This document shows positions 9,247 through 52,219 of a stretch of 64,000 bases of DNA, piece after piece. The DNA lies in assembly GCF_004799685.1 (NCBI RefSeq), contig NZ_CP031311.1, positions 2,232,001 through 2,296,000 on the forward strand. The letters run 5' to 3'. Each line of letters opens with the position of its first letter. Positions within the stretch are counted from its first letter, which is position 1. This DNA is from Halobellus limi. Its GTDB lineage: Archaea; Halobacteriota; Halobacteria; Halobacteriales; Haloferacaceae. The position numbers and the translations under genes were made by a program. The notes under the pieces were generated by a model. The model ran no database searches and had not been told where the DNA came from. It was given only the letters and a program-made list of their open reading frames with translations.

Positions 9247-9543
9247 CAGTAACTGCTGTCCTTACGCGCGTATTGTTATACGGCTGTTAAGCGTGCATTC
9301 GCCTCCTGCGTGGCCGAGTGCGGGTACCCGGGCGTCGGCGGAGACCACTATCGACTCGATCGACCGGTCGGTGTCACGGCGGCGCAGATTCCTTTCCCCC
9401 GGCGTTTCTCTAGCGACCGGCCCAATAAACGTACGCTCCCGAGTATCAAAGTCGATATTTTCGGACCGGATCGGCGGCCGCACGGAGAGAGCCGACTCCG
9501 GCATCGAACCCCTTTTGATTGCGGCGCCGCGTAGTGAGCGGCG
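9247..9543. other. Divergent intergenic region before tyrA
   Basis: About 297 nt between two divergent genes. Apart from a ccttttga box at 9511-9518, 26 nt before the tyrA ATG, and a ttgttatac stretch near the 8743-9246 gene, I see no feature, RNA gene or repeat. Confidence 0.5.
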
Positions 9544-43211: not shown

Positions 43212-44228
43212 CTACGTCATCGAGGCCAGCCGCGCGATGTAGACGAGGCTCAGGTGGTGGTCGTCGACGTCGTACTCGGTCGTCTCAGAGACCTCGCCGG
43301 AGAAGCCCACGAGGTAGTCCTGCAGTTCGGCCTCGACGCCCTCGGTGAGCCACTCGACGGTGTGGTAGTACCGCAGCGCGTCCATCGTCCGCTTGTACCC
43401 GCCCTTCAGGACGAGGAACTCGAGCCAGTCGAACACGAGGCGTTCGGCGACGTAGGCGTCGGGAAGCGATCCCAGGTACGGTTTCGTCAGCCCGCCGTCG
43501 CCCGCGGCGGTCTCGTGCACGAGGAGCTGTTCGAGCTGGTTCTGCCGGAGTGCTTCGCCGGCGCGCCCGCGCGGGCGCTCTCGAATCTCCGTATCGAACT
43601 GGAACCGGCCGACGTCGTCGGGCGAACCGAACCCGGAATCCCGTCGCCGAGGGGGGTCAGATCGGGCGTCTCGATCTCGGGGCCGTTCCCCGCGGGGACG
43701 GTCGCGCCGCCGCCCCCGAGCCGCTCCGTCGAAGCCCAGGTCGCGCGCGATCTGATCCGCCAGGACGACCTCGTCGTGACCGCGGGCGTGATCCGAGTCG
43801 CCGCGTCGGGGCGGGGTCACTTCGCGGGGCCGTACGGAGACGTCGTCGTCGGTCTCCTCCCGCCCGTTCGCCGTCTCCCGAGCGGCCGACGGTTCCTCGC
43901 TTCGGCGGCTGTCGCCCCGGTCGCTCCGGCCTCGACCGCCGTCTCTCGCGCTGTTCCCCGTCCGCCCGTTCCGCCGTCGACCGTCGTCGTCACGGTCTCG
44001 ATCGGCTCGCCGTCCGTCGTCCCCCCGGGCGGAGTCGTCGCTCGACGGCGACTCGGCCCGCCGACCGTTCCGGCGATCGCGACGGCGGCGGTCCGTCCGT
44101 CGTCTCGGGGCGTCGTCCGCGTCCGCGTCGGCGGACCGGTCGTCGCTCTCGGCGCGACGCGCCCCCCGGCGTTCGTCTGCGATGCGTCTGAGCTCTCGGA
44201 GGTCGTAGTCGTCGGGATCGATTGTCAT
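43212..44228 (-). CDS. Second ArlD/E-domain protein with Arg/Asp-rich tail
   Basis: 338 residues. The C-terminal about 100 (YLGSLPDAYVAERLVFDWLE through YLVGF) match the archaellum ArlD/E domain, and the end DDHHLSLVYIARLAS shares the HH-x2-SL-x-YI-x-RLA pattern with ArlCE (VEHHKESLTYISRLAG). The N-terminal two thirds are extremely rich in Arg, Asp, Gly and Ser and almost certainly disordered. It follows cheD, so it may connect chemotaxis to the archaellum motor; this is inference from context and domain. Confidence 0.78.
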   Translation of the reverse strand: MTIDPDDYDLRELRRIADERRGARRAESDDRSADADADDAPRRRTDRRRRDRRNGRRAESPSSDDSARGDDGRRADRDRDDDGRRRNGRTGNSARDGGRGRSDRGDSRRSEEPSAARETANGREETDDDVSVRPREVTPPRRGDSDHARGHDEVVLADQIARDLGFDGAARGRRRDRPRGERPRDRDARSDPPRRRDSGFGSPDDVGRFQFDTEIRERPRGRAGEALRQNQLEQLLVHETAAGDGGLTKPYLGSLPDAYVAERLVFDWLEFLVLKGGYKRTMDALRYYHTVEWLTEGVEAELQDYLVGFSGEVSETTEYDVDDHHLSLVYIARLASMT

Positions 44229-44416
44229 TGCCTGTCTCCTGTGTCACGGCGACCGGGACGCCGCTCGCTCGTCGTACTGGACGATTCACAGGCCCGTGCA
44301 TAAACGTGCCCCCGGCATTATCAGAATAGATATCTGGCCGAGGGTTGGGTCACTCCTCCGACGCTGGGCGAGGGACTCGGGGAGGAGAGCCCACCGGTGA
44401 GCCACTTCCGAGGGGA

Positions 44417-44959
44417 CTAGATGACGTGCGTCTCGCCGTGGGCGCGACGGATCGAGAGTTCGCCCGCCTCCACGTCGAACGACAGCGAGCGGCCGTAGTC
44501 GCCGCCGATGTCGCTGTCGATCAGCGGGATCCCACTGGCGTCCAGCGCCTCACGGGCCGCGGCGACGTTGCGCTCTCCGACCGCACCGGCGCTGGATTCG
44601 AACTCGAACATCGCGCTCCCGCCGGCGAGGCGTCCCTCGATTCGGGCCCGCTCGGCACCGGCGTCGGCCAGTTCGCGGACGAGTTCGGGGACCGCGGTAT
44701 CGACGTACTTCCAGACGTCCGGGTGGACGTCGTCTGCGGCCTCTTCCCGCTTGAGTTCCGCGCTCGCGGAGGGCAACATCGCGTGTGCGAGGCCAGCCAC
44801 GCCGGCCTCGACGTCCGCGAGCGCGATCCCGACGCAGGAACCGAGACCGCTGGTCACGAGGGTCGACCCCGCGTGGGCGACCGCGTAGTCGGCGACGCCG
44901 ACTTTGATCCGTTCGGGTTCGGATCTGTCGTTCGATCGGTCGGTGGTGTAGACCTTCAT
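44417..44959 (-). CDS. cheD: Chemoreceptor glutamine deamidase CheD
   Basis: 180 residues. CheD deamidates or demethylates receptor glutamines and binds CheC. The catalytic triad is visible: Thr36 and Cys42 in LVTSGLGSCVGI and His59 in AGLAHAML. The spacing (Thr six residues before Cys) matches characterised CheD proteins. It is the third gene of the minus-strand cheY-cheC-cheD cluster, about 107 nt after cheC. Confidence 0.93.
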   Translation of the reverse strand: MKVYTTDRSNDRSEPERIKVGVADYAVAHAGSTLVTSGLGSCVGIALADVEAGVAGLAHAMLPSASAELKREEAADDVHPDVWKYVDTAVPELVRELADAGAERARIEGRLAGGSAMFEFESSAGAVGERNVAAAREALDASGIPLIDSDIGGDYGRSLSFDVEAGELSIRRAHGETHVI

Positions 44960-45066: not shown

Positions 45067-46320
45067 TCAGTTCGCCTCGGGCGCGAGCTGGTCGAACGCT
45101 GCGCGGAGTTCCCGCTCGTCGGGCAGCGCGTAGATGTCGCAGGTGAACGTCTCGTCCGGCGTCGCGATCGCCGAGTCGATGAGGAACGCGTAATCCTGCG
45201 TCCGGGCGAGCTCCGTCACCAGCGGGTCCACGATCGCCGAAGCGATGTCGTCGACGTACCGCGGCGGCGAGATCTCGATCGTCGTCTCCAGGGCGTTCGC
45301 CCAGCCGTCGAGGAACCCGGAGGTGACGATGTTACCGATCTCCTGTAAGGCGCTCTTTCGCATCGCCGGGTCCGACTCCATCCCCGGCATCAGGGCGTCG
45401 GCGACGCTCTCGGCGGACTCGGGGTCGAAGAGGATGGCGATGTATCCGGACGGCGTTCCGCTGAACTCCAAGACGACGCCGCGTCTGGCGTCGTCGGTCA
45501 GTTCCATCGGCACGCCTTCGACCGGAACGAAGCTCAACCGGCTCACGTCGACGTTCGTCTCGATCCCGGTCATCGCCGTGAGGTCTTCAGACGCCTGTCC
45601 CGCGCCCTCGGAGATCATCTGCGAGAACGAGGTGAACGTCTCGACGGGGATCGCATCGTCCGCGTCGCCGGCTACGTCGACGATCGTCTCGACGGACGCC
45701 TGCGTCGGGAGCATATAGATGTAGAACCCCGCCTCCTCGTCCACCGTTTCGAGGTGGTTTCGGAACGCGAGGACGTGATCGGAGTCGATCGCGGCCGTGG
45801 ACCCGTCGAGAACCGCGGCGTCGGTCGCTCCGCCCCCGATGTCGGTGGAACCGTCCGGGGTGTCCGCAGCTCCGACGACGTCCTGCAGCGAGCGTCCGGC
45901 GTCCAGTTCGACGTACGTCGGGGTGGTGATGTCGATCGAATCCCCGAGGAAGTCGGCCCAGCCGTCGATGAACCCGCCGAGCATGATGTTTCCGAGCTCT
46001 TTCAGCCCGCTCGTCGCCAGGTCGCTGTTCGGGTCGTCGGACGCGCCGGGGACGAGCGCGTCGACGAGCGAGACGGCGCGATCGCGGTCGAAGGCGAGGA
46101 CGGTGTGGCCCTCGATCGCACCCGAGAAACCGATGTGAACCGAGACGAGATCACGCTCGCGGAACTCCCGTTCGACGTCGTCGCGGGTCGCCATCTCGAC
46201 TTTCGTGACGGCGACCCGCGCGTCGAACCCGGTGAGCGTCGTGAGCGACCCCGCCGCCTCCTCGGCTCCGGAGTGGGCGAGGCGGCTGAAGGTCCGAAGC
46301 GACTGGACGTCGAGGTTCAT
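45067..46320 (-). CDS. cheC: CheC-type CheY phosphatase with two CheC domains
   Basis: 417 residues comprising two CheC domains. Each holds the phosphatase motif: SGLKELGNIMLGGFIDGW (first) and SALQEIGNIVTSGFLDGW (second), with Glu and Asn that attack phospho-Asp of CheY. An Asp/Gly/Ala-rich linker separates the two. Haloarchaeal cheC genes commonly carry tandem domains. Overlaps cheY by 4 nt, so the two are coupled; cheD follows. Confidence 0.92.
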   Translation of the reverse strand: MNLDVQSLRTFSRLAHSGAEEAAGSLTTLTGFDARVAVTKVEMATRDDVEREFRERDLVSVHIGFSGAIEGHTVLAFDRDRAVSLVDALVPGASDDPNSDLATSGLKELGNIMLGGFIDGWADFLGDSIDITTPTYVELDAGRSLQDVVGAADTPDGSTDIGGGATDAAVLDGSTAAIDSDHVLAFRNHLETVDEEAGFYIYMLPTQASVETIVDVAGDADDAIPVETFTSFSQMISEGAGQASEDLTAMTGIETNVDVSRLSFVPVEGVPMELTDDARRGVVLEFSGTPSGYIAILFDPESAESVADALMPGMESDPAMRKSALQEIGNIVTSGFLDGWANALETTIEISPPRYVDDIASAIVDPLVTELARTQDYAFLIDSAIATPDETFTCDIYALPDERELRAAFDQLAPEAN

Positions 46321-46685
46321 GCTTCGACGCCCACCACGTCGTCGATGGCCTCGAGGACGTTCGGCTTCTGGAACGGTTTCGTGATGTAGCCGTCGGCCCC
46401 CGCTTCGACCGCCTGTCGCATCTTCTCTTCCTGACCGACGGAGGTGCACATAATCACCGAGGAGTCGGGATCGATCGACTTGATCTCCGAGGTCGCCTCG
46501 ATGCCGTTCCGGATCGGCATCACGACGTCCATCGTGACCACGTCCGGGTCGAGTTCGCGGTAGAGTTCGACCGCCTCGACGCCGTTCTCGGCCTCGCCGA
46601 CGACGTCGTGATCGTCCTCGAGTAACTGCTTCAGGAGGTTCCGCATAAACGCCGAATCGTCCACCACCAGTACGGAGCGTGCCAT
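46317..46685 (-). CDS. cheY: Chemotaxis response regulator CheY
   Basis: 122-residue single-domain receiver. Asp9 and Asp10 bind Mg2+, Asp53 in VVTMDVVMP is the phosphorylation site, Thr81 and Lys103 (YITKPF) complete the switch. Without an output domain, it acts on the archaellum motor through CheF and its partners. The ATG is at 46683-46685; cheC starts in its stop region. Confidence 0.95.
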   Translation of the reverse strand: MARSVLVVDDSAFMRNLLKQLLEDDHDVVGEAENGVEAVELYRELDPDVVTMDVVMPIRNGIEATSEIKSIDPDSSVIMCTSVGQEEKMRQAVEAGADGYITKPFQKPNVLEAIDDVVGVEA

Positions 46686-46790
46686 ATCTTCCCTTCCGAG
46701 AAACGCTGTATAAACGCATCGTCCTCATTATCAGCACTGATACGAGATACGATCCGTCGAGCGCTCGAACCGCGGGGGAACCCGCGGCCG

Positions 46791-47360
46791 CTACTCGTCG
46801 GCCGGTATCTGAAGGCGTTCGTCCCTGAGCGCCTCGATCAGGTCCGCGATGGAGTCGTCCATCGAAAGCCCGTGCTCGCGGAGGACTGCAGCAAGAGTAT
46901 TCGCAGGGTAGGTGACGGTCGTCTCCGATGCCAACAGGAGGATGCCGATCGCCTCGGCCGGCGAGGCTTCCGTATCGATCTGTTCGACGTACCAGGTGAC
47001 CAGCTCCCCGAACCCCGCTGCGAGGTCGTCGGTGAACCGCTCGTGCTGGGCGACGTCACCGTCGAATGCGGCCGTGAGGGCGAACCCGTAGTCCGACCCG
47101 CTCTCGGAGACGTATCGAGCCATCTGCTGGCGAGCGAGCGTCCCCCGGTCGTCGGGCGTTCCGTCCTCGTCGGAGGCGCCCGCCTCGTCGGCCCCCTCCG
47201 TCGACGGCGCGTCGTCGTTGTCAGTCGCGACGACGTACCGACCGTCCGAGAGCTCCGCCACGCGCTCGGAACTGGTGTAATCGAGTTCGTCGGGCCGGAC
47301 GACACCCTCCTCTGTCCGCGCGCTCGGCGGCGCGTCGTCGGGAGGATCCGCGGGAGCCAT
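46791..47360 (-). CDS. Haloarchaeal DUF7500-like protein of the che locus
   Basis: 189 residues. An acidic, disordered N-terminal half (Asp/Glu/Ala, about residues 1-80) precedes a helical C-terminal domain (TLARQQMARYVSESGSDYGF, then AEAIGILLLASETTVTYPAN). It is upstream of cheY on the same strand. I recognise it only as a conserved haloarchaeal protein of unknown function, with context pointing to chemotaxis. Confidence 0.7.
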   Translation of the reverse strand: MAPADPPDDAPPSARTEEGVVRPDELDYTSSERVAELSDGRYVVATDNDDAPSTEGADEAGASDEDGTPDDRGTLARQQMARYVSESGSDYGFALTAAFDGDVAQHERFTDDLAAGFGELVTWYVEQIDTEASPAEAIGILLLASETTVTYPANTLAAVLREHGLSMDDSIADLIEALRDERLQIPADE

Positions 47361-47499
47361 ACCCTCGAATGCCCGCGGCGGAATAATAAGGCCATCGCAG
47401 GCGCACCCGACCGGGTGGGCGGGTCGTGCTATCAGTATCAATAGCGAAATCGAACGACCGTCACATTCACGTGATTCCGGTTAGAACGTGGCGCTGTCT

Positions 47500-49566: not shown

Positions 49567-50319
49567 CTACTCCAAGCCGCCGGGATCCTCTTCGCCGAAC
49601 ATCGGGGGCGTGTCCCCCATCATCGAGAAGCCGGCCGCCTGCTCGTAGACCTCGATGCCGCCCTCGTCGATTTCGAGGGGAAACATCGAGTTCTTGATCG
49701 GCTGTTTGCGCATCTTCGCGACCCAGATGTATCGGTTCGACGTCGAGCCAGCGGGTGACTGGATGAGGTAGATGTTCCCGTCGGTGAGGAAGTTCTCCAG
49801 GCCGATCTCGGTGTCGGGGAAGACCGCCGACTGCTCCATCGTCAGGATCGAGGTGAGCCCGCTGTCTTTCAGGATGTCGATGAACTTGAGGAGGTACTGC
49901 CGCTGTTCCTGCTCGTTCTCGAAGAAGAGCTGAAACATCGTCAGCGAGTCGAGGACGAGTCGGTCGTACTGGGTGTCCTGGAGGTCGTCGAGAATCGTAT
50001 CGAGCGTCGAGGAGAAGTCGCCGCTACGGAGCAGCGTCCGCTTGTCGTACACCTTGATCTGACCCGATTCGACGAACTCGTCCCAGCGGTCGAAGCCGAT
50101 CGATTCGGCGGCCTCGCTGATGTCGTCTTTCGTCTCCTCGAAGGTGAGGTAGATCCCGCCCTCGTCGAACATCTCGACGCCGTTGTAGAGGTACTGGAGC
50201 CCGAGGATGCTCTTTCCGGTGCCGGGGTTGCCGCTGACGAGCACGGCAGCGTTCTTGACGATTCCCCCGTTGAGGATCGAATCGAGGCCCTCGATTCCGG
50301 TCTTGACGAATTCTGGCAT
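49567..50319 (-). CDS. RAD55/KaiC-like single-domain ATPase
   Basis: 250 residues of the RecA-like RAD55/KaiC family. Walker A is GNPGTGKS (30-37) and the Walker B strand is DRLVLDSLTMF. Only one ATPase domain is present. It is encoded between the archaellins and arlCE on the opposite strand. ArlH, a related single-domain KaiC-like protein, functions in the archaellum motor; this paralogue could regulate expression or motor assembly. The ATG at 50317-50319 is close to an operator-like site. Confidence 0.85.
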   Translation of the reverse strand: MPEFVKTGIEGLDSILNGGIVKNAAVLVSGNPGTGKSILGLQYLYNGVEMFDEGGIYLTFEETKDDISEAAESIGFDRWDEFVESGQIKVYDKRTLLRSGDFSSTLDTILDDLQDTQYDRLVLDSLTMFQLFFENEQEQRQYLLKFIDILKDSGLTSILTMEQSAVFPDTEIGLENFLTDGNIYLIQSPAGSTSNRYIWVAKMRKQPIKNSMFPLEIDEGGIEVYEQAAGFSMMGDTPPMFGEEDPGGLE

Positions 50320-50429
50320 ACCTGTGATCACTTCCTGTCGAGTGTTGGCTACGAGGTCGGTCCCGCACGCGGATAATACTTCGCACCCGGGGAGAACAGC
50401 CCCGGTCGTCGCGTTTGCAGCCCTCGTCG

Positions 50430-50788: not shown

Positions 50789-52219
50789 ATGGGCGTGATG
50801 GACTGGATGGACGGCGACGGGGGCGACGAGTCCGATCCCGTCGCGACCGACGGGCTCGGATTCGACGAGGACCTCGACGGCGAGATGGGAGATCTCGACG
50901 GTGAGATGGACGACCTCGACGGGGAGATGGGAGGGATGGACGACTTCGGCGACGATATGGGCGGTTTTGACGATGGCGGAGACTTCGGCGGTGGCGACGT
51001 CGACCCCGACACGATCGCCGATATGGAGGATCGGATCTCCGAACTCGAAAACCAGGTCAGTTCGATCTCCTCGGAGATGAACACGGTCCGCGAGGAGAAC
51101 AAGCAGATCGGCGAGACCGTCGAGGAACTCGACGAGACGATCCGGAAGCTCCTCGACATCTACGAGATGGTCACTCGCGGGATCAACCCCTTCGTCGACG
51201 ACGCCCGCGAGATGGGCGGTCTGGAGGGAGACGGCGCCTTCGGCCTCTTCGAGATGGAAGAGGAGACCGAGGACGACCTCGATTCGGAAGTCGCGAGCGC
51301 GGACGCCGAGTCGTTCTTCGACGAGGACTTCGGCGACCTCGACGACGAGCAGAACGAGGCCGAACTCGCGGCGGAAGACGAACTCGCCGAGGAGGAACAC
51401 GAAGATCCCGCGATGGAACTCGACGACGGTGGGGACGGAGAGGAAGAGGCCGCGAGCGGCGGTGCCAGCTTCGACGATCTGAAGGCCGAGTACGAGGAGA
51501 ACGAGGGCTGGGACGACGTCGAAGGAGAGGGCGCCGAAGGAGACGTCGACGAAGAGGCCGACCTCGATGAGGAAGAAGACGTCGACGGAGAAGCAGACGT
51601 CGCCGGCGGAGCGGACCTCGACGACGCCGAGGAACGACCCGGCGAAGAACCGACCGGCGAATCGGTCGACGCGTTCGACGAGGCGGCCGGGGAAGCCGAC
51701 ACCGACGAGGCGCTGTTCGACGCCGACGAGGCCGGCGAGACGGACGGGACGGCCGACAGGACTGCGGCGTCAGAGGGGTCCCGAGGAGCGGACAGGGCCG
51801 TCGGAGCCCCCGGGACGTCGACCGGCGCGGAGGACGCCTACCTGTCGGCGCTCCCGGCGCGGTACACCGCCGAATCGGTCGTCCTGGAGTGGACACGATT
51901 CCTCGTCGAGACCGGCGGGGCGATCGGTGCCGCGCGGGCGCTCCGACAGTACCGGTCGCAGGGCTGGATCACCCGGGAGGTCGAACGGACGATGAGCGAG
52001 CACGTCCGTAACGCCGCCACCGCGGGCGAGACAGAGCAGCCGCAGGACCTCCGCGTCGAACACCACAAAGAGAGCCTGACGTACATCAGCCGTCTCGCGG
52101 GCGACGTCGCCGAACGGGGCTCGGCGGGCGGCCGGACGCAGTCCGGTCACGTCGACGAAGCGCGGCTCCTCGAAGAGCTATCGGCGCTCGGAGGTGGTGC
52201 TCGTGGGATTCGGCGTTAG
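50789..52219 (+). CDS. arlCE: Archaellar protein ArlCE (fused C and E domains)
   Basis: 476 residues. An N-terminal acidic stretch carries three LDGEM-type repeats (about 29-48), then a coiled coil (EDRISELENQVSSISSEMNT). A long Glu/Asp/Ala-rich linker is followed by the ArlD/E-type domain (PARYTAESVVLEWTRFLVET) and a VEHHKESLTYISRLAG end. ArlCE is the archaellum motor's switch-associated cytoplasmic protein. First gene of the motor operon, overlapping arlF. Confidence 0.92.
   Translation: MGVMDWMDGDGGDESDPVATDGLGFDEDLDGEMGDLDGEMDDLDGEMGGMDDFGDDMGGFDDGGDFGGGDVDPDTIADMEDRISELENQVSSISSEMNTVREENKQIGETVEELDETIRKLLDIYEMVTRGINPFVDDAREMGGLEGDGAFGLFEMEEETEDDLDSEVASADAESFFDEDFGDLDDEQNEAELAAEDELAEEEHEDPAMELDDGGDGEEEAASGGASFDDLKAEYEENEGWDDVEGEGAEGDVDEEADLDEEEDVDGEADVAGGADLDDAEERPGEEPTGESVDAFDEAAGEADTDEALFDADEAGETDGTADRTAASEGSRGADRAVGAPGTSTGAEDAYLSALPARYTAESVVLEWTRFLVETGGAIGAARALRQYRSQGWITREVERTMSEHVRNAATAGETEQPQDLRVEHHKESLTYISRLAGDVAERGSAGGRTQSGHVDEARLLEELSALGGGARGIRR

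Follow-up and report, generated by a model that had tools for sequence, protein, structure and literature searches.

In the archaellum, ArlCDE is described as the ring to which CheF, an adaptor that binds CheY-P, docks (PMC9126983), and interactions of ArlCDE with CheF and ArlH have been reported (PMC8978795; see also PMC2666748). Deletion of flaD in Haloferax volcanii led to non-motile cells that were generally devoid of archaella, and a FlaD-GFP fusion was mainly polar and formed polar foci (PMC6509185). The onward route of the CheF signal within the archaellum switch is still presented as speculative in two papers (PMC9126983, PMC8978795).

Here, we describe arlD (flaD) from Halobellus limi. 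ArlD itself is known; what is new is a long disordered insert that is lineage-specific and partly conserved, and papers describing it were not found in the open-licence literature searched.

The arlD gene and its neighbours

The window, that is, the whole stretch of 64,000 nucleotides of the H. limi contig NZ_CP031311.1 that was analysed, contains at 43212-44228 an open reading frame of 338 aa with an ATG start. These ends are exactly those given in an earlier, sequence-only reading, but the coding strand is the minus strand. A long antisense ORF, read on the plus strand over 43212-44228, overlaps arlD, and Arg-rich false frames arise in GC-rich DNA; both would speak for a wrong frame or start and an untranslated tail. 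This is hardly conceivable, since a conserved N-terminal motif precedes the tail, every part with a computable dN/dS gives a value below 1 and GC3 in the tail is 0.79.

In Pfam, the protein matches PF04659 (Arch_fla_DE) alone at E ≤ 0.1, over residues 249-335 (E 3.1e-25, 88.4 bits, cut-off 21); the CheF family domain PF04283 is absent at the same threshold, and NCBIfam gave no match at E ≤ 0.1. A search of the H. limi genome (3.75 Mb, four contigs) revealed two PF04659 genes, this one and arlCE (50789-52219, plus strand), which encodes PF05377 (FlaC_arch) together with PF04659 and an acidic linker. PF05377 is absent from the 338-aa protein, which marks it as a stand-alone D protein. Because the other of the two genes is arlCE, the gene is the ArlD gene of this genome, and its product is a known component of ArlCDE, the cytoplasmic switch ring of the archaellum. 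It had been called a second ArlD/E-domain protein whose C-terminal domain is common with that of ArlCE; the shared domain is indeed PF04659 in both, but the protein is the canonical ArlD. The ArlD domains of Haloferax are 66-71% identical to it over the compared part. Absence of ArlD from motile relatives was looked for and not encountered: among 17 Halobellus genomes, ArlD, the archaellum motor ATPase ArlI (scored over its family cut-off) and CheF always occurred together, in 12 genomes, and the remaining five, three of which are less than 90% complete, gave none of the three.

An FQFD motif, a helix and the C-terminal ArlD/E domain together span residues 204-338 (43215-43619, minus strand; PF04659 at 43224-43484). 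The model of the domain (residues 226-338) has four helices at a mean pLDDT of 84.9. A Foldseek search with it gave 34 matches at E ≤ 10, of which the best had E 2.9 and none E ≤ 0.001, and a PDB sequence search revealed no relative (five matches at E ≤ 10, best 0.1). Judged from the work on Haloferax and Halobacterium, the packing partners of this domain are probably the corresponding domain of ArlCE and the motor.

Upstream of arlD and on the same strand lie cheD (44417-44959; PF03975, E 5.2e-27), cheC with two CheC stretches (45067-46320, start chosen by us; PF04509, E 3.1e-25) and cheY (46317-46685; NF041367 CheY_Halo, 209.4 bits, cut-off 200), and the setting in a che cluster is thus as first described. 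The window shows the order cheY-cheC-cheD-arlD, and so do 21 of the 23 named loci (L073-L095) scanned for gene order; these 21 come from Halobellus, Halogeometricum, Haloferax and Salinigranum. The two exceptions are a Halegenticoccus locus (L095), in which ArlD alone was found, and a Halobellus salinus locus (L079) with ArlD, Usp, a kinase and PhoU and no che gene in the 20 kb scanned; there, arlD is away from cheY, cheC and cheD, unlike arlD of the other named Halobellus loci. Two further genes, encoding a KaiC-like ATPase (49567-50331, minus) and a DUF7500 protein (46791-47441, minus), keep their positions among arlCE, the archaellins and cheY in most named loci of the four genera; the KaiC-like ATPase is 83-98% identical where found.

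Does the position next to the che genes mean that the protein is a separate adaptor beside ArlD, linking chemotaxis to the archaellum? The gene does adjoin che genes, and FlaD is listed among the partners of the CheF homologue OE2404R in Halobacterium salinarum (PMC2666748). However, the genome search gave no other stand-alone ArlD, synteny and the domain tree described below, together with the co-occurrence, put the protein as ArlD itself, and the established adaptor is CheF (PMC9126983, PMC2666748), which is encoded elsewhere in the genome. Like ArlD, CheF has its place between the chemotaxis system and the switch ring and occurs in the same 12 Halobellus genomes, but it belongs to family PF04283. 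We consider an additional adaptor very unlikely. The idea survives in kind only, in that ArlCDE, to which ArlD belongs, links chemotaxis with the archaellum.

In this connection, a third ArlD/E-domain protein of Haloferax should be mentioned, which is encoded between arlD and a Usp gene (L082 14305-14583, L083 15650-15958, L093 14304-14582 and other Haloferax loci) and is 27-32% identical to the domain of the H. limi ArlD; no such protein was seen in the Halobellus and Halogeometricum loci, whose genomes gave two matches each. Five genomes of another genus (g32, G091-G095) have six to eight CheF matches each and one match to the ArlD query, and three genomes (G085, G018 of genus g3 and G045 of genus g26) have ArlI over the cut-off and no CheF match; these three possibly have archaella without chemotaxis.

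A promoter-like element upstream of arlD and cheY

It had also been proposed that arlD is transcribed with cheY-cheC-cheD. This we could not uphold: the gap of about 190 bp between cheD and arlD holds a promoter-like element, TGATAAT-N9-ACGTTTAT (44300-44323, minus strand), that is conserved upstream of arlD in Halobellus. TGATAAY is present there in all 12 Halobellus and ACGTTTAT in ten. Scanning the window with up to three mismatches gave five sites compared to 0.18 expected, among them those of arlD (no mismatch) and, at 46710-46733 on the minus strand, of cheY (one mismatch). Across L073-L094, 38 sites were found with up to two mismatches and none with three control patterns; 19 precede cheY, 16 arlD (six of these assigned through arlD start positions) and two archaellins, and one is without an assigned gene. 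Six of these loci are without an arlD site and three without a cheY site. Since the pattern was derived from arlD upstream regions, only the sites outside arlD are independent support.

In the whole genome, up to two mismatches gave seven sites compared to two for a reversed control. They precede arlD, cheY and genes that, from reading of their translations, are cheW-like, transducer-like, pilin-like and thioredoxin-fold/AhpC-like; the seventh is unclear. The thioredoxin-fold/AhpC-type gene would not be expected in a motility set: its element (9425-9448, minus, one mismatch) lies 178 bp before a gene for 167 aa, typed by eye.

In H. volcanii, the consensus of CsmR is given as TATCA-N4-TGATA (PMC13286277). 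The 5' half of the element fits this consensus, and a CsmR-like box with one mismatch, recognised by eye, overlaps the arlD element at 44319-44332. The element, shared by many loci from Halobellus to Haloferax, fits a CsmR box together with a TATA-like element. A scan for sigma-70 promoters and terminators, which does not cover archaeal promoters, found nothing. Judged from these motifs, arlD probably has its own promoter and appears to be co-regulated, rather than simply co-transcribed, with the che genes.

The charged insert and its distribution

ArlD is built from an N-terminal motif, a charged stretch, an FxFD motif, a helix and the C-terminal domain. The N-terminal motif (residues 1-21, MTIDPDDYDLRELRRIADERR; 44166-44228, minus strand) is conserved in an alignment of 18 ArlDs, tailed and short, in all of which M1, P5, Y8, E12 and R14 are invariant. 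It is followed by a first Arg/Asp polyampholyte stretch, residues 22-126 (43851-44165, minus), recognised by its composition and low pLDDT and only loosely conserved, by a conserved island, residues 127-167 (43728-43850, minus), and, as seen from the conservation profile and the alignment, by a second, shorter charged linker, residues 168-203 (43620-43727, minus). What had been taken for a very long Arg/Asp-rich tail is therefore internal, lying after the invariant N-terminal residues, and we use the word tail in this sense. Its richness in Arg and Asp, on the other hand, does exceed base composition: from codon-position base frequencies, 0.16 Arg and 0.08 Asp are expected in the Arg/Asp stretch and 0.28 and 0.19 are observed, and the excess of both holds in all three genes tested. 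The suggestion of a flexible linker likewise fits its appearance, but for an internal segment and not for a tail.

AlphaFold gave a full-length model of low quality (mean pLDDT 50.3, 18 sequences), unsuited to a fold search. Among 350 ORFs called by a simple rule of our own in 464 kb of the H. limi genome (the window and 20 further stretches), ArlD has the third-highest Arg content in a 100-aa window; one of the rows above it, at cheC, is an over-extended ORF that runs across cheY. Among eight disordered, highly charged windows, ArlD is first for charge fraction. The 350 ORFs are mostly acidic, with a median net charge of −0.08 per residue, and the nearly neutral, disordered Arg/Asp insert thus stands in a genome of mostly acidic ORFs.

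Altogether, 19 tailed ArlDs were found, from 12 Halobellus, five Halogeometricum and two genomes of a sister genus (g7). In all 19, the tail is 132-265 aa long, a twofold variation in length; the charged fraction is 0.41-0.57, the net charge per residue −0.047 to +0.059, the Arg content 0.22-0.29 and the Lys content at most 0.01. The mixing of charges does not differ from that of shuffled sequence (patterning z −1.3 to +1.2).

A search of 170 genomes of the family gave open frames of 297-447 aa in every matching Halobellus, Halogeometricum and g7 genome, 167-213 aa in Haloferax and 210-240 aa in Salinigranum. When one rule was applied throughout, the tailed clade had linkers of 152-285 aa, three Salinigranum of 80-103 aa, six Haloferax of 37-57 aa, and other members of the family and a few rows from other families of 20-47 aa. 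The Haloferax ArlD (166-186 aa in 12 loci) resembles the window ArlD in its N-terminal motif, FRFD motif, helix, C-terminal domain, position after cheY-cheC-cheD and Arg-rich neutral linker, but the linker is short and no island is seen in the alignment. The Salinigranum linker is also Arg-rich and neutral and of intermediate length, but gave no island match at E 0.01 and, when measured in the same way, does not reach the minimum of the tailed clade. That an Arg-rich neutral linker is unique to the tailed clade is ruled out by these linkers (Arg 0.19-0.23 in Haloferax and in Salinigranum) and by those of genus g38 (0.20-0.23). Most remaining linkers are acidic, and so are the 16 parsed from other families of the order, which are 24-46 aa long; that sample consists of 20 places picked mainly by long open frames, and L125, L134, L135 and L136, unparsed by the motif rule, were not counted.

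Because Haloferax and Salinigranum linkers share the composition and yet are shorter, it is the length and content of the linker, and not its composition, that by sequence comparison set the tailed clade apart. In a domain tree of 50 of the 57 parsed rows (L016-L022 left out; L047-L049 also out, with start unparsed), the tailed rows group as a clade (support 96/92) and the long form needs one change, which holds only if Salinigranum is counted as short, one of its two rows being at the cut-off. The lengthening may have been graded, since Salinigranum is intermediate and Haloferax already Arg-rich and neutral. In Halobellus, Halogeometricum and one sister genus, a linker of this composition has lengthened to 132-265 aa, nearly net-neutral. 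Short tandem repeats are present in the window arlD and also in Haloferax linkers (L039, L041, L085), where they are of the type RFDDSRYDDG; such repeats suggest how ArlD linkers can lengthen.

Could the Arg-rich arm itself be the active part, which, through many weak charge contacts, clusters rings or ties them either to the acidic ArlCE linker or to the polar cap? Although it shares PF04659 with ArlD, ArlCE of the same genome has an ArlC part and a linker that is not a neutral polyampholyte but acidic, with 2% Arg and a net charge per residue of −0.39, compared to 28% Arg in the arm; such opposite partners, and the polar foci of FlaD-GFP in H. volcanii (PMC6509185), would agree with a charged tether. 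The arm, however, is near zero in net charge with its charges mixed as in shuffles, charge contacts are expected to be weak in a salty cytoplasm, and H. volcanii makes its polar foci while the Haloferax ArlDs read are without a long arm. Moreover, the Haloferax ArlCE linker is equally acidic and equally long. Since the tailed genera do not clearly depart from Haloferax in their ArlCE linkers (with one Salinigranum linker unparsed), we keep electrostatic pairing with ArlCE only as a rival, and an active arm as a whole appears improbable.

The conserved island and the candidate role of the arm

The 41-aa island was delimited after inspection of the conservation profile, so that its low dN/dS is partly a matter of choice. 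Over nine close pairs, dN/dS is 0.02-0.13 in the domain and 0.25-0.70 in the rest of the tail, where in-frame indels are many. In four Halobellus pairs, drawn from five genomes only, the island has values of 0.00, 0.06, 0.08 and 0.04, so that its constraint is close to that of the folded domain. This holds for these four Halobellus pairs only, since the values are higher in the Halogeometricum pairs (0.47, 0.16, 0.34 and 0.18) and in the sister genus pair (0.20), and in two of these five pairs the island exceeds the rest of the tail.

A recognisable form of the island is present in all 19 tailed ArlDs; two Halobellus proteins (L011, L013) clearly keep its second half only. Pfam gave no match for it. 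When the island was used as a query, 22 of the 170 family genomes matched at E ≤ 0.01, 19 of these through tailed ArlDs, and at E < 0.001 nothing beyond tailed ArlDs was matched in the 170 genomes. Two tailed matches are weak (G074 and G077, E 0.0023-0.0024) and no better than the three off-target ones (G068, G142 and G150, E 0.001-0.004), which lie away from ArlD and which we take as chance matches. Among the genomes searched, the long form and the island are restricted to one clade. In the low-confidence full-length model, a helix is predicted at residues 146-163, with a block of pLDDT 75 at residues 151-160, and we tentatively regard the island as helical and as a probable docking motif.

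An alternative is that the insert is a linker lengthened by repeat slippage that drifts under weak limits on composition, and that the island, though slower to evolve, has no partner. The relaxed, indel-rich tail with its twofold spread in length, the tandem repeats in the window arlD and the RFDD/RYDD-type repeats in Haloferax linkers, the similar composition of the shorter Haloferax and intermediate Salinigranum linkers and the weaker constraint on the island outside Halobellus all fit drift. The tight constraint on the island in the four Halobellus pairs, its presence in every tailed protein and the excess of Arg and Asp over the base expectation do not. On balance, we judge drift rather unlikely.

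Fairly likely, in our view, is that this ArlD combines two functional parts: a polyampholyte that would be a flexible, non-sticky spacer, and an island that would be a new docking helix for a partner. The island may be presented on arms by the switch ring. Candidate partners are CheF or CheF-CheY-P, ArlH, ArlCE and a polar-cap protein.

In bacteria, an N-terminal CheY-binding peptide of FliM is tethered to a subunit of the switch ring. This peptide, FliMN, is mentioned in PMC9126983 and, by its tethering, may serve as a working analogy for the ArlD island, for which CheY binding is putative. CheF is attractive as a partner because it docks to the switch ring (PMC9126983). It is tempting to speculate, as a long shot, that the arms of Halobellus and Halogeometricum catch CheF or CheF-CheY-P in a manner convergent with FliM, with a neutral Arg/Asp spacer that would suit a salt-saturated cytoplasm.

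A conserved island on a long arm of a ring subunit provides a defined 41-aa peptide as a candidate ring contact, and Haloferax is the natural short-linker comparison for the tailed ArlD.
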